A stretch of 64,000 bases of DNA from Stenocarpella maydis (lineage: Eukaryota; Ascomycota; Sordariomycetes; Diaporthales; Diaporthaceae). The notes under the pieces are model-generated. The model searched no databases, had not been told where the DNA came from, and saw only the letters and a list, made by a program, of their open reading frames with translations. Made by a program: the position numbers and the translations under genes. This document shows, piece after piece, positions 33,220 to 63,036 of the stretch (the first letter of the stretch is position 1; every line of letters begins with the position of its first letter). The DNA lies in the NCBI GenBank assembly GCA_002270565.1, contig NQMI01000169.1:18728-82727 (forward strand). Reading direction: 5' to 3'.

Positions 33220-35979
33220 TCACCTTATAGGCACAGGTGTAATCAGCTCGAAGGACACTCTCGCACCGTCGGGCCTCACCCAGAGGGTCAAGGGATCACT
33301 CCCAATCTGCTCCGATCGTGCGCCCTTGGTATCCCTCACCGGGCCAGGGAATGTAACCGGAATCTCGACTTGGCAATTCCCATCCGCGGCGGAAACAGTC
33401 GCTCCCACGAGGGTGTTCCCATCGGCCGAATAGTCCATCCTCAGCGCGGGCTGGCACTGGTCCCTCTGGCGCCTAGCGACAAACGCCCTACCGAGATCGT
33501 CTTGCTTGAGCGTGCGGATCGGCCAACTGACCAGTCTCGTCATCTCGTCCACCAGCTCCTCAACCCAGATTTGCAGAAGCGACAGGTTCGTGTACGAGTG
33601 GGCGGCGGTCTGAACGACGCCCGTGTCGACGGCGTGCATGTTTGCCTGGTGGAACATGTACGGATCGTGGCGCAGCGCGAGCAGGTTCCGCGCGGCAGCC
33701 ACGCGCTCGATCTGCATGATGCCGTCGAAGCCCGTCGTCTGGCCCAGAGCGTTCTGCCAGAGCGCCGTGTTGGAGGCGGCGTCGTCACAATTAAAGTAGA
33801 TGTTGGTCGCGAAACGGGGGATGATCTCGAGCCCTGCCGCTCCATTGCGCTCCTCGGTCGTCGTCAGCGTCCTGCAGCGTTGAGGATCAGCTTTCAAAGA
33901 AACCATGGAAGGAGTTTCTTTCAAACACAGCGTGGATCGGGCGATAGTGTGGCCATGGCACTTGAGATATACGCTCGGGGGGGGGGGGTTCATTCTTCCA
34001 AAGCGGGTTCAACATGGCCCCAGAAGCTGCTTACCAGAATGGGCGCTCAGTGTTCAGGAGGCGCGGGCGGGTGTTGTCGCCCACCACGTATATGATGCCG
34101 TTGCCTGTAAAGGCGCGGATTGCGTCGCCGTTGTGCAGGCCTGTGATCTGCGGCGGAACGAGGGACTGTGGGGAGAAGTTGGGGTGGCCCGAGAAGCCTG
34201 TGTTATTAAACCAAATCTGGTTGAAGCGGATCTCCTTGTCCACGTCGGAGAAGGTGGCATTGGACAATGCCAGATGCGTGAACGTATGACTGACATGGTA
34301 GAACCCGTCAAGGTGGGTGGCGAAGTAAGTTGCGAGGGGGTCGAGGCTCTCGCACTGCTCGGACCAGGTGTAAGTTCGCTGCTCCGGGGGCCAGGCATCC
34401 TCGCCGGTCCCAAGAGGCTTCTTGAATTCCTGATCGACAAGAATAGGCTTGGGTGCCGTGATGACATTCGACTCTGGGGTGCAGGTATTGGTACCATATG
34501 ATTCCTCCACAGCCTCTTCGATATTTCCGTTACCATTGTAGGCCATCTCAATCAAATAGTCAGACCCAGCGGGCATACGCGAATTGATGCTTCTTGTCCA
34601 CGCGGCATGAGCCTCGACGTCAGCCACGCGCAAGCGGAAGTCTCTCGTGGTCCCGTCTGTGATGTGTTAGTATCTTACTTTGGAGCTCCAAGTTGCATCT
34701 TTTGAATGTTTCCTGCGGGTTTATTAGGAAGCACTGAGGTAAAGAAGGCCCTGTGCTTACAGATTGTAGTTTTCAAGAGGACGTCGTCAATATGTGTTCC
34801 CAGGTACACCCGTCGTTGGCCGAGGTGTAGCCCACGTGTCATCCAGCTGATCCACGAATGCTGGATGAAGTTGGATGCTTGGGACCAGCCCGCAGCAAAG
34901 CTGGTGAAGAAGACCATCTGCTGGCGTGTACCGTTGGAATGTGGGATTTCGTTGATGACAGCAGCGGTGGCATCGCTTGAGAATGCTGGTCCAGCGTGCA
35001 ACTTGGCAATAGGATGGGTCGTTGCGGCGTCGGTCACGTCGGCGCCATAGTAGAATAGGCCATCCATGGCGACAGTGCCACCTTGCTTGATCCCAGAGCT
35101 TTCGAAGCCCGTCAAGTTGGTGAAAGACCAGAGCTGGCCTGCGGCCGAAGAGCCTCCCGGCGCCCTGACGTTGACACCAAACTGCGGCGTGGGGAAGACG
35201 TCCAGCCGCGCCATTCGTACGCCATACTTCACTTGGTAGTCATATAGCGCAGTCCACTGGGCGTCTGTCAAGGCACTGAGCCAGCCTATCCGCCCGGGCT
35301 CATTGTACTCGTACGCAAGCTCCTTGAGCGTCACTATACCCGCATAGTTGCCGTAGCCGTCTTGTTCAAGTGTTGGGAGAGCGGTACCAGCTTGGGGGAA
35401 CGTGAGGACTTCATAAGGAATGCCGAGTCCCTCGAGTCCCAACGTACAGATGCCTGCGAAACTTGCAACCCATTGGTCTCCGGTAGGGACGATGCAGAGG
35501 ATGGTTTGTCTAACACCAAGAGCCCTGGAGTTGCTTAAGGATGGTGTGTCTGTTGTGTTGGTGCTGTTCGGGCTCGGTGTGACGGAGACTGTCGGAGCTG
35601 ATGTGGTTATAGAGGCACTCAAACTTGCGCTCGCCGTGCTCTGGCTACCCGTGTTTTCTGTTGCGATGTTGATACCAGAAGAGATACTTGATATATCCGT
35701 TGCCGTGTTTGTGCCAGAAGACCCGGTTCTTGTGTTCGCGCCAAAAGAATTGCCGGCAGTGTCTACCGCTGAGTTCACACTCGAGGAGAAGACCGAGTTC
35801 GACGAAGAATCGTAGTCTGGGATTGTCACGGTGATGGAGGCCGTGCTATACTCCGTAACAGTTACAGAAGGGCATGTATCGCCTGTTCCCTGGGCTATAG
35901 TAAGGGCGGCATCAAGAGAGAATATGAGAAATGCTATGCGCAAGGGCAAAGTCCACTTTGAAGTCATATCGCAGGTCAT
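33220..35979 (-). CDS. agd3: secreted polysaccharide deacetylase of the Agd3 type (CE18)
   Basis: Homologue of the Aspergillus fumigatus enzyme that removes acetyl groups from N-acetylgalactosamine in galactosaminogalactan, making the polymer cationic and adhesive. Exons are 34761-35979, 34035-34656 and 33220-33871, with introns of 104 and 163 nt, giving 830 residues (A. fumigatus about 806). A signal peptide (LPLRIAFLIFSLDAALTIAQ) is better placed if translation starts at the second Met (35967). A Ser/Thr-rich stretch (residues ~35-150) follows. The NodB-like catalytic domain shows the metal-site Asp pair in YLGTHIDDVLL (Asp398/Asp399) and the H-x3-H motif in HVSHTFTHL (His530/His534). The second intron is the introner-like copy described separately. 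Other cluster members (uge3, sph3, gtb3, ega3) are not in the window. Substrate identity is inferred from homology only. Confidence 0.85.
33872..34034 (-). mobile_element. introner-like element in agd3 intron 2
   Basis: A 163-nt GT-AG intron whose sequence recurs in the cellobiose dehydrogenase gene at 46964-47123. Read on the coding strand it opens GTAAGCAGCTTCTGG and ends GCTGCAG, both identical in the other copy. The last ~95 bases align at about 80% by eye with one single-base gap. It contains a run of 12 C that the other copy lacks. Its splice junction completes Trp (TG|G) in ERPFW-TLTTTEERNG, so the intron is spliced precisely in an otherwise intact gene. Flanking exons share nothing with the other host gene. 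Confidence 0.85.
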
Positions 35980-45514: not shown

Positions 45515-48340
45515 ATGATGAAATTCTCACAGCGTATCGGCGTTGCGCTGGCCGCGGTCACTTTTTGTAAGCAAAACTATGTTCATAATTCCGTCGTATA
45601 GTCAGTCCACTAACAACAAGCAGATGGACAGCGATGCTGGGCGCAAGGTCCTGTCATGTACACAGAGCCGTCGACAAACATCACGTTCCCGACATGGGCT
45701 GATGAGGGCGGCTACACATTCGGTTTTGTGGTGCCAGATACGGCATTGACCACTGACAGCTATGAGTACATCGGATACCTGGTGAGACTCCATGCCCATT
45801 GGCGTGAACCATAGCCTCTGACAAGAAGCCAGAGTTGCACAACCCCGTCCGGAGCAGGCGCAGCATACTGCGGCGTGTCTCATGGCCAGTCCGGCCAGAT
45901 GACGCAAGCCCTCCTCCTGGTAGCATGGCCTTTCGAAGGTCAAGTCCTCCACTCCTTCCGCTACGCCACGGGATACACGGAACCAGCCCTCTATACCGGC
46001 AAGGCAACATTCACAACCCTCGCGTCGACGGTCAACAACACCGCCTTCCAGGTTGTGTACCGGTGTGAGAACTGCTTCGCCTGGAGCCAGGACGGCGCGG
46101 AGGGCGGCATCTCGACGAGCACAGGGTTCACGGTCCTAGGTCGTGCCGCTTCGAACGAGGCACCTGGAAACCCGGGCTGCCCAGACCAGATCACGATCCC
46201 GTACCACCGCCGCCTGTTCGGGCAGTACGGAGCCTCGTTTGCCAACGCCACCGTGGCTGCTTACTCGGACTACGCGGCGCTGCCGCCCAAGCCCACGGCC
46301 ACAGCAACGACATGTGCCGGCGGCGGTGCCACCCCGACTGGCAACGCCACCACCACCTCGGGCTTGCCTACTGCGACACCCACAGCGGCATGCAAGTCGA
46401 TCCCTGCGAACAGGACGTATGATTACGTCGTGGTCGGCGGTGGCGCCGGAGGTATTCCCATGGCGGACAGGCTGAGCGAGGCGGGCCACTCCGTGCTGCT
46501 CATCGAGAAGGGGCCAGCGTCTACGGGGCAATGGGGCGGTGCCCTCCGTCCTGAGTGGCTGGACGGCACCAACCTGACCCGGTTCGATGTGCCTGGTCTC
46601 TGCAACCAGATCTGGGTGGACTCGGCCGGTATCGCGTGCACTGACACGGACCAGATGGCCGGCTGCGTGCTAGGCGGTGGCACGGCTGTAAACGCAGGAC
46701 TGTGGTGGAAGGTGAGTCGGCGGTCACCCCTCTAGGACATCTTGCCGCAGATTCCCCTTTACTGACATGTCAACAACCAGCCCAACCCTGCCGACTGGGA
46801 TGAGAACTTCCCGGCAGGCTGGAAGGCCTCCGACGTCGCGGCCGCAACGGAGCGCGCCTTCAAGCGCATCCCCGGCACGTGGCAGCCCTCGGCGGACGGC
46901 CAGCTCTACCTGTACCAGGGATACGACGTTCTCGCGTCCGGGCTCAACGCGAGCGGGTGGGAGGTAAGCAGCTTCTGGAGTCATTTTTAACGCGCTTTGG
47001 AATAAGAAATTCCCTCCCGGAGCCTTTGTCTCAAATGCTATGGCCATGCTATGGCCCGACCCACGTTGTGTTTGAATGAAACTCCCTCCATTGTTCTTTG
47101 AAAGTTGACTCTGAATGCTGCAGTACGTCGTGAGCAACGACGCTCCCGAGCGCAAGAACCGGACCTTCGGCCACGGCCAGTTCATGTTCGCGAGCGGCGA
47201 GCGGGGAGGGCCCCTGGCCACGTACCTCGCCAGCGCTGCCGCGCGCGATGCCTTCTCGCTGTGGACCGATACCTCGGTGGACCGCATCGTGCGCGACGGG
47301 GCGCACGCCACGGGTGTCGAGGTGTCGTGCTCGGCCGGCTCTGGCTACTCGGGCACCGTGAACCTCACGCCCGGCACCGGGAGGGTCATCGTGTCCGCCG
47401 GCACGTTCGGAACACCCAAGTTGCTGTTCCGGAGCGGTATCGGGCCGGCTGACCAGCTTTCCATCGTCAAGGCCTCGGGCGACGGCGCCAGGATGACCAG
47501 CAACGACTCGTGGATCAACTTGCCGGCTGGGTCCAACCTCGTGGAGCAGATGAACGTGAGTAGCCACTGCAGCCACCATCCAGAGCAAAACTGTGAGGGC
47601 CTAACAACTGATTCCACCGCAAATAGACCGATGTGATAATTACACATCCAGGCGTGGTGTTCTACGACTTCTACGCGGCCTGGAACAAACCCATCGAGTC
47701 AGACAGGCAAGCTTACCTCACCAACCGCTCGGGGATCCTCGCACAGGCCGCGCCCAACATCGGGCCCATGCTGTGGGAGGAGATCCGGGGGGCCGACGGC
47801 ATCACTCGCCAGCTGCAGTGGACCTCCCGCGTCGAGGGCGACTCGGCCTTCACCAACTCGACGCACGCCATGACCATCTCGCAGTACCTGGGCCGCGGCC
47901 AGAAGTCGCGAGGCCGCGTGACCATCACGGGCGGCCTGACCATGACGGTTTCGACGCAGCCCTTCCTGCACGACGACAACGACAGGCTCGCCGTGGTGGC
48001 CGGCCTCAAGAGTCTCCAGGACTCGCTGCGCGGCATCCCCGGGCTCCAGTGGGTGCGCCCCAGGGCGGACCAGACCGCCGAGGCTTATGTCGACTCGCTG
48101 CTTGTGACGGCCAACGGGCGGCGGTCGAACCACTGGATGGGCACGGCCAAGATGGGGACGGATGACGGATCTGCAGGGGGCACGGCGGTTGTTGACACGA
48201 ATGCCAAGGTATACGGCACGGACAACGTCTTCGTGCTGGATGCTAGTATCTTCCCCGGCCAGCTGACGGGGAACCCGTCGGCGGCGATTGTGATTGCTGC
48301 CGAGCATGCCTCAGAGAAGATCCTGGCGCTGTCTTCCTGA
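45515..48340 (+). CDS. cdh: cellobiose dehydrogenase, class II without CBM1
   Basis: Secreted flavocytochrome that oxidises cellobiose to the lactone and passes electrons to copper-dependent polysaccharide monooxygenases. Six exons: 45515-45566, 45624-45781, 45833-46711, 46781-46963, 47124-47555 and 47627-48340, all joins in frame, giving 805 residues. A signal peptide is followed by a b-type cytochrome domain (~20-215) with a Cys pair in YRCENCFAW. The probable heme ligands are Met93 (SGQMTQALLL) and His195 (ITIPYH). A Pro/Thr/Gly linker precedes the GMC flavin domain: dinucleotide fold DYVVVGGGAGG near 267-277 and catalytic His737 (NHWMGTAKMG) with Asn784 (LTGNPSAA). The protein stops right after the flavin domain (KILALSS), so there is no cellulose-binding module. 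The fourth intron (46964-47123) is the introner-like copy. The 3' end converges on the RNA polymerase III gene 284 bases away. Confidence 0.95.
46964..47123 (+). mobile_element. introner-like element in CDH intron 4
   Basis: A 160-nt phase-0 GT-AG intron (WE|YVVSND) homologous along its whole length to agd3 intron 2 (33872-34034, opposite strand). The first 15 bases and last 7 bases are identical. The middle contains CGCTTTGGAA and TGTGTTTGAA blocks shared with the other copy. The other introns of this gene (57, 51, 69 and 71 nt) show no such relation and are less than half as long. Confidence 0.85.
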
Positions 48341-62373: not shown

Positions 62374-63036
62374 TGTAACGAATAAGATCTACTTATATTT
62401 AAAAAGCATTATAATGAAATACTAAATATTAAATATTTATTAGCTAATATATTAAGCTTGTATTATTAATAATGCATTTAATAACTATAGTTATATTATT
62501 AATACTTTTATTAAACGTTTTAAATAAAGAAAGTTAATTATAAGACCCTGCCTTATATAATAGTTATTAATAAAAGAACTAATAATATATAATCTTAAAA
62601 CATTTCCTTTTAGAAAAAGTCTTATATAGAGCTATATTCCAGATTATCTTCTAACTCATAGTTAAGAATAAGAAGAAGATAAGGTGTTATATAAGGGTTA
62701 TAAATATAACCAAAATAAACAAATATATATAGCCGCTAAGTAGCGAAATAATAGTATATAAGTACTATATTCCTTAGAAGATAAATACAGCTAAATTTAT
62801 CCCTTCCTCCCTCTCCTCCTATTTACTCTTCCTTCCTCCTCTTTTATATAAGAATTTCTCCTTACTACTTAATTATTTAAAGTTACTTATAACTTATAGC
62901 TTTATAATAATGTTACGATCCTTGGCCCAGACGTAAGCTATATATATGGTTGGAAGGAATGTTCGAACAGAGAGTTCGAATATTAGCTGATCTTTTGATC
63001 TATGGCGTAGTAGTACCTTCCACCACGATCGTTACA
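62374..63036. mobile_element. unclassified AT-rich segment with inverted termini
   Basis: Begins TGTAACGA (62374) and ends TCGTTACA (63036), perfect 8-base inverted termini of TG...CA form, with a RIP-like interior. A second possible left border, TGTTACGATC at 62911, would give a 126-bp unit with 9 of 10 terminal positions inverted and normal composition. No target duplication was found for either version. It could be a solo LTR or debris. Confidence 0.3.

Follow-up and report, generated by a model that had tools for sequence, protein, structure and literature searches.

Why do two unrelated genes, agd3 and cdh, appear to carry one and the same intron? Both genes lie in a 64,000-nt stretch of Stenocarpella maydis DNA, called the window here. 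An earlier note on this DNA had attributed their similar introns to introner-like elements, that is, to spliceosomal introns that spread. The agd3 intron occupies positions 33872 to 34034 on the minus strand (163 nt) and the cdh intron positions 46964 to 47123 on the plus strand (160 nt), in agreement with the strands, lengths and coordinates given there; both begin with GT and end with CAG, and they score 151 and 175, respectively, against the family profile. They match end to end, with 79.8% of 163 aligned positions identical (E = 6e-36 by blastn within the window), and they agree in every one of the first 15 and the last 7 bases, which bears out the proposed homology along the full length. 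Their local alignment score is 192, whereas none of 500 mononucleotide shuffles scored above 38.

The exons on either side of these introns encode two different proteins, and are unrelated, as had been claimed. When joined, the agd3 exons align with Agd3 (6nwz, E = 5.5e-109) and the cdh exons with cellobiose dehydrogenase (4qi7, E = 1.1e-78), in each case without a gap at the junction, so exact excision would restore two unrelated proteins in the intact frames that the note had described. The note had also called both introns more than twice as long as most of their neighbours, and this holds against a predicted set of 30 introns from the fetched loci and the window (median, 73.5 nt). Each intron has a putative branch-point motif at the position of a conserved CTGAC in the family consensus: CTGAT in agd3 (33886 to 33890, minus strand) and TTGAC in cdh (47105 to 47109, plus strand), a role that we assume from the fungal branch-point consensus. 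An Rfam search of the window gave no match. The agd3 copy also contains a run of 12 C at a place where the consensus is mixed, and C runs occur in a few other copies too.

These introns belong to a large set of similar sequences. A profile search of fetched loci, followed by the merging of split matches, confirmed 107 elements on 65 contigs of the 53.5-Mb genome, which supports introner-like elements as the explanation for the agd3 and cdh introns and bears out the expectation of many copies in the genome. Scans with words from the element, for each of which a reversed-pattern control returned 0 matches, yielded 43 genome matches to the 5' 15-mer (exact), 49 to the 5' 30-mer, 39 to the middle 29-mer, 89 to the 3' 28-mer and 110 to the 3' 23-mer (the last four with up to 3 mismatches), and 64 to both ends when exact and separated by a gap of 132 to 162. 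Outside the 107 elements lie 11 of the listed places from the 3' 23-mer scan and 11 places from the both-ends scan; three are common to the two, and at least 3 of the both-ends extras have unrelated interiors and look like chance matches. The word scans put the size of the family at about 120 as a lower bound. A single-query search of the genome gave at least 41 match rows (40 of 90 candidates scored), and a query with a diverged copy produced 8 matches, all already among the known copies. Chance resemblance between old introns, or gene conversion between the two loci, has negligible probability given 107 copies, empty reversed-pattern controls and homologues that run through the sites; gene conversion between these two loci only, which the note had named as a refuting outcome, is excluded by copy number. 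The agd3 and cdh introns are almost certainly members of a fungal introner-like element family of around 100 or more copies.

Both ends of the element (model position 1 or 2, and position 160) are reached by 94 of the 107 copies, three of them only as two joined pieces, and the 13 that fall short of one or both ends were left out of this end-to-end set. The consensus is 160 nt long, and the 94 copies range from 84 to 195 nt. They start with GT in 92 cases and end with CAG in 88 and TAG in 6, hence with YAG in all 94. Identity to the consensus has a median of 87%, and pairwise identity a median of 76% and a maximum of 96%; among the copies compared, there was no near-identical pair in unrelated genes of the kind that would be a sign of present activity. 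Terminal branches are long (median, 0.119) in a tree of the 89 GT copies of more than 125 nt, and these branches, together with the spread of identities, indicate that the main burst was not very recent.

Weaker, apparently decayed relatives adjoin some copies. Weak second matches to the family stand next to known copies at L019:1922-2109 and L110:480-567, consistent with older introners that are fading into ordinary introns. At locus L078, the introner at C30:15400 is followed after 31 bases by what may be a second intron (119 nt, starting with GTAAGTAACTTCCGGAG and ending with GTTGCAG), perhaps a decayed family member, with a partial match to the profile (E = 0.011).

Insertions are mostly in sense within coding exons. 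The codon score is best in the sense orientation for 78 of the 94 end-to-end copies. The 16 that score best in antisense divide into 8 whose sense Pfam match passes the curated cut-off, 3 with a weak sense match and 5 with none (the GT donor is lost in two of these five); the antisense readings of 10 of the 16 returned no Pfam match. Sense coding support above threshold is present in 86 of the 94 copies, 78 by codon score and 8 by Pfam, and in 77 of 94 exact excision leaves the best upstream frame in register with the best downstream one. A seeded random sample of 30 of the 94 copies was examined for host genes (28 scanned; the other two were agd3 and cdh), and 20 of the 28 had sense matches, 19 of them above the cut-off, to Pfam families of many kinds. 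The junction is crossed by 18 of these matches, in one case by two residues; six unmatched copies of the sample, searched against Pfam at E values of up to 1, gave no match (6 of 6). Joined exons are gapless at the junction in a 4-coumarate-CoA-ligase-like gene and in an aldo-keto reductase, where a gap of six residues stops four residues short of the junction on its upstream side, and the junction of a RecQ copy lies outside the span of the PDB match. Stop codons provide a weak test of splicing, since at 90 nt the antisense is open in 65 of 92 copies, compared with 76 of 92 for the spliced reading. From the sequences, we infer that the copies are spliced in the cell.

The agd3 and cdh sites occupied in S. 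maydis appear to be empty in relatives, an outcome that the earlier note had proposed to look for in orthologues. Among the best 120 of 642 homologues, 109 are contiguous at the agd3 junction (11 are gapped nearby), and the cdh junction is contiguous in 106 of the best 120 of 244 (13 are gapped nearby and one does not cover the junction). The junction in a GH43 gene is contiguous in 112 of the best 120 of 8000 homologues (8 are gapped nearby). Relatives with a single open reading frame and 52 to 90% identity read across the agd3 junction (P0001, at 90% and on a 45.8-kb contig, P0003, P0004 and P0005), and 10 of 11 aligned single-ORF relatives read through the cdh junction, the eleventh starting at the junction itself. 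Single-ORF proteins on long contigs, together with internal starts, point to unspliced genomic frames, so these relatives seem to be without the agd3 and cdh introns at these sites. The closest named Agd3 among the matches listed is that of Discula destructiva (Gnomoniaceae, Diaporthales), with 81% identity, a match that by itself would probably place the host in or near that order.

The insertions left no detectable scar. Short target duplications at the exon borders, which the note had suggested as a feature to look for, are absent: none exceeded the permutation expectation at k = 1 to 6 in the 94 copies, and at k = 4, 5 and 6 there were 0 of 94, with permutation means of 0.47, 0.10 and 0.02. 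Six-mers common to both sides within 12 nt occur in 5 of 94 copies (permutation mean, 1.26; maximum, 5), a weak excess for which we have no explanation. A duplication hidden in the CAGT common to both junctions (CA|GTAA ... CAG|T, where the bar marks the junction) would require the empty site to hold one G more and the frame to shift, and it was rejected because the GH43 site (aca|tg) is contiguous in the homologues counted above.

The lack of a target-site duplication weighs against a non-autonomous DNA transposon with terminal inverted repeats, which would be spliceable by accident and placed by a transposase at the DNA level. The ends do show an imperfect inverted similarity, as such an element might (score of 21, reached by 30 of 1000 shuffles), and CATG, the core of many insertion sites, is palindromic, as a DNA-acting enzyme might prefer. 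But the copies are mostly in sense within coding exons, both splice sites lie inside the element, and no longer copy with the same ends is found among the 107 elements, making a DNA transposon an unlikely source. Since scars are lacking and most copies lie in sense in coding exons, spread by RNA through transcripts is favoured over DNA transposition.

Insertion sites were tabulated for 92 copies, the two of the 94 without GT being omitted. The preference among them is strong and has (A)CA^T(G/C) at its centre; C^AT forms a second register. The sequence CA|T(G/C), or CA|TS, is present at 27 of the 92 sites, compared with a background of 1.2% (p = 2e-29), and C|AT at 10 of 92, compared with 1.6%; C follows the junction (+1) at 1 of 92 sites, compared with 30%. 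At the 65 sites other than CA|TS, |TG occurs 18 times (background, 5.9%) and |C once (background, 30%). An additional A precedes the word in 13 of the 27 cases (ACA|TS), as opposed to 67 of 296 background CATS words (p = 0.009), and 10 of the 27 are CA|TC. The more diverged copies show a stronger bias (16 of 35) than the closest ones do (8 of 39; p = 0.027), and the bias clusters on the tree (18 changes, with as few in 2 of 1000 shuffles). No preference of the AG/GY type was found among the 92 sites, where AG| occurs 5 times (background, 5.8%) and AG|G twice.

Ordinary introns have less CA|TS, as judged from control sets that are predicted, small and sensitive to the cut applied. The word is present in 0 of 6 predicted introns in one set, 2 of 22 in another (p = 0.059) and 2 of 30 in a third (p = 0.012), and in 1 of 17 under a stricter cut (p = 0.066). 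T at +1 occurs in 4 of the 22 (p = 0.0019), 3 of the 30 (p = 1.2e-5) and 1 of the 17 (p = 0.00012). An excess of phase-1 insertions (23 of 27 sense-scored CA|TS copies) is explained by the motif, since 144 of 172 CATS words in the flanking exons are also in phase 1.

Helitrons leave no duplication and target A^T, and their ends read TC...CTRR. A Helitron-like insertion would fit the 30 of 92 sites that are A|T, but the other 62 are not, and the element ends are GTAAGC...GCAG and not TC...CTRR, so that this origin is highly improbable. A [D1,2] stwintron was also considered and rejected; it would need a G before the GT, and G stands there in only 23 of 92 copies.

The earlier note had further suggested folding the copies in search of a conserved stem. 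Most copies are predicted to form a near-terminal stem, but covariation lends it no support, with compensatory changes above the shuffle maximum in 0 of 13 helices. Single-copy folds pair GCAGC (nt 5 to 9) with GCTGC two bases before the intron end. In the agd3 copy (minus strand), whose fold is weak as a whole, the predicted 5' arm is at 34026 to 34030 and the 3' arm at 33874 to 33878; in the cdh copy (plus strand), the corresponding arms are at 46968 to 46972 and 47117 to 47121. The mean pairing probability of this end stem is 0.83, and 75 of 87 copies have a value above 0.5. Fold stability varies: z is -1.29 for the agd3 copy (25 of 200 shuffles as stable), -3.88 for the cdh copy (0 of 200) and -2.87 for a third single-copy fold. 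Over 60 folded copies the mean z is -1.90 in sense and -1.43 in antisense, such that the antisense, too, is somewhat more stable than shuffles. Among the 13 helices, the number of pairs kept is marginally above the shuffle maximum in one (nt 35 to 39) and equal to it in another, and alignment-wide folding predicted no pairs (alignment A1 comprised 84 of the 94 copies and the pair counts 87). Shuffling the interior while leaving the ends in place lowers the pairing of the end stem only from 0.83 to 0.74, and conservation of the ends for splicing may be all that retains it.

Taken from the sequences, RNA-mediated spread through transcripts is the likeliest route and a reasonably probable one. 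A 160-nt spliceosomal intron carrying both splice sites and a branch-point motif has almost certainly copied into about 100 or more coding exons. The excised intron RNA, perhaps held by the near-terminal stem, would be returned by reverse splicing either to a transcript or to the coding strand of a gene under transcription, and the reverse-spliced copy would then become DNA. The lack of enrichment for AG|G counts against reverse splicing, for which a preference for that site could be expected; the site preference calls for a recognition step additional to reverse splicing. An A in place of G at -1 brings no gain for pairing with U1. Given a CATG-like word that is unlike AG/GY and a -1 A that is no help to U1, something else seems to choose the site. 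We tentatively propose a mobile spliceosomal intron with sequence-directed insertion, a possible but not a probable mechanism in which an RNA or DNA recognition step would direct the element to (A)CA^T(G/C) or, one base off, C^AT, without duplication. The target word, if true, would offer a direct handle on how introners insert.

Alternatively, intron RNA or a copy of it could be captured to fill double-strand breaks in genes that are transcribed, as in the Fekete model for Hypoxylon, with the breaks concentrated at CATG-like sites. Gapless insertion without a target-site duplication is what such capture would produce, a blunt break at the CATG dyad would yield CA^TG, and in the predicted stem the two end Gs lie close to each other, as in the elements described in PMC8469720 and PMC12403724. 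Break capture alone, however, predicts both orientations and intergenic copies, whereas 86 of 94 copies are sense-supported and 0 of 10 scanned antisense readings are supported; the CA|TC sites, moreover, are not palindromic. We consider break capture doubtful, and retain RNA-mediated spread through transcripts as the preferred reading.

For the insertion of introners in fungi, reverse splicing, break repair and DNA transposition predict different orientation, scars and site choice (the models of introner spread are taken from PMC8469720). A scarless, mostly sense family with a strong site word unlike AG/GY makes these rival models testable. The family may also extend introner-like elements to the Diaporthales; a literature search, which left aside supplements, preprints and most closed journals, found no paper joining introners and this order.

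The Dothideomycetes introner-like elements (Collemare 2015, PMC4457414), compared by description, resemble the present family in forming many similar introns in unrelated genes, in seamless insertion, in the presence of two in one gene, in decay towards ordinary introns and in predicted structure, which is of uneven stability here, but they belong to another host group, the present host being a member of the Diaporthales (Sordariomycetes). The sister stwintrons, cropped sister introns and NTIRE-10 of the Hypoxylaceae and Xylariaceae (Fekete 2021, PMC8469720; Fekete 2025, PMC12403724) share with it inverted repeats a few nucleotides from the end Gs, a 3' arm that stops 2 nt short of the end of the intron, and seamless insertion without target-site duplication, functional on the coding strand. 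They differ in their outermost stem, which has 10 bp as opposed to 5 bp here, and in exon bias, which is strong here, while none is reported for them. The introners of Gozashti 2022 (PMC9860276) are likewise similar introns that reach both splice boundaries and lie mostly in genes. The absence of target-site duplications in our family is as that paper states for ascomycetes; it also states that ascomycete families lack terminal inverted repeats, whereas imperfect near-terminal inverted repeats of modest significance and a site motif are present here. The site preference itself, CA|TS, differs from the AG/GY that PMC8469720 cites from van der Burgt, and is surprising given that the fungal introner papers compared here (PMC8469720, PMC12403724, PMC9860276 and PMC4457414) describe either AG/GY or no bias.

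A few individual copies have features of their own. Two copies at G000:C110:34297-34447 (minus strand, L091) and 62508-62658 (plus strand, L090) have the same profile span and score, are oppositely oriented and lie 28 kb apart, which suggests an inverted segmental duplication that carries an introner. Pairs of copies on the same strand occur at C89:20202 and 20752, C167:377715 and 378699, and C218:267529 and 268620, with 391, 825 and 933 bases, respectively, between their members, and both copies of the C89 pair are, according to Pfam, in one MPAB-type gene. Around C218:804334 (L027), an introner lies inside a 690-residue open frame without a Pfam match. In the GH43 gene of L020, which has its introner at C99:65803, the closest relative among the matches listed is from Colletotrichum (87%), while agd3 points to the Gnomoniaceae, which speaks against a simple placement; horizontal transfer, or losses elsewhere, is a possible source of this affinity.
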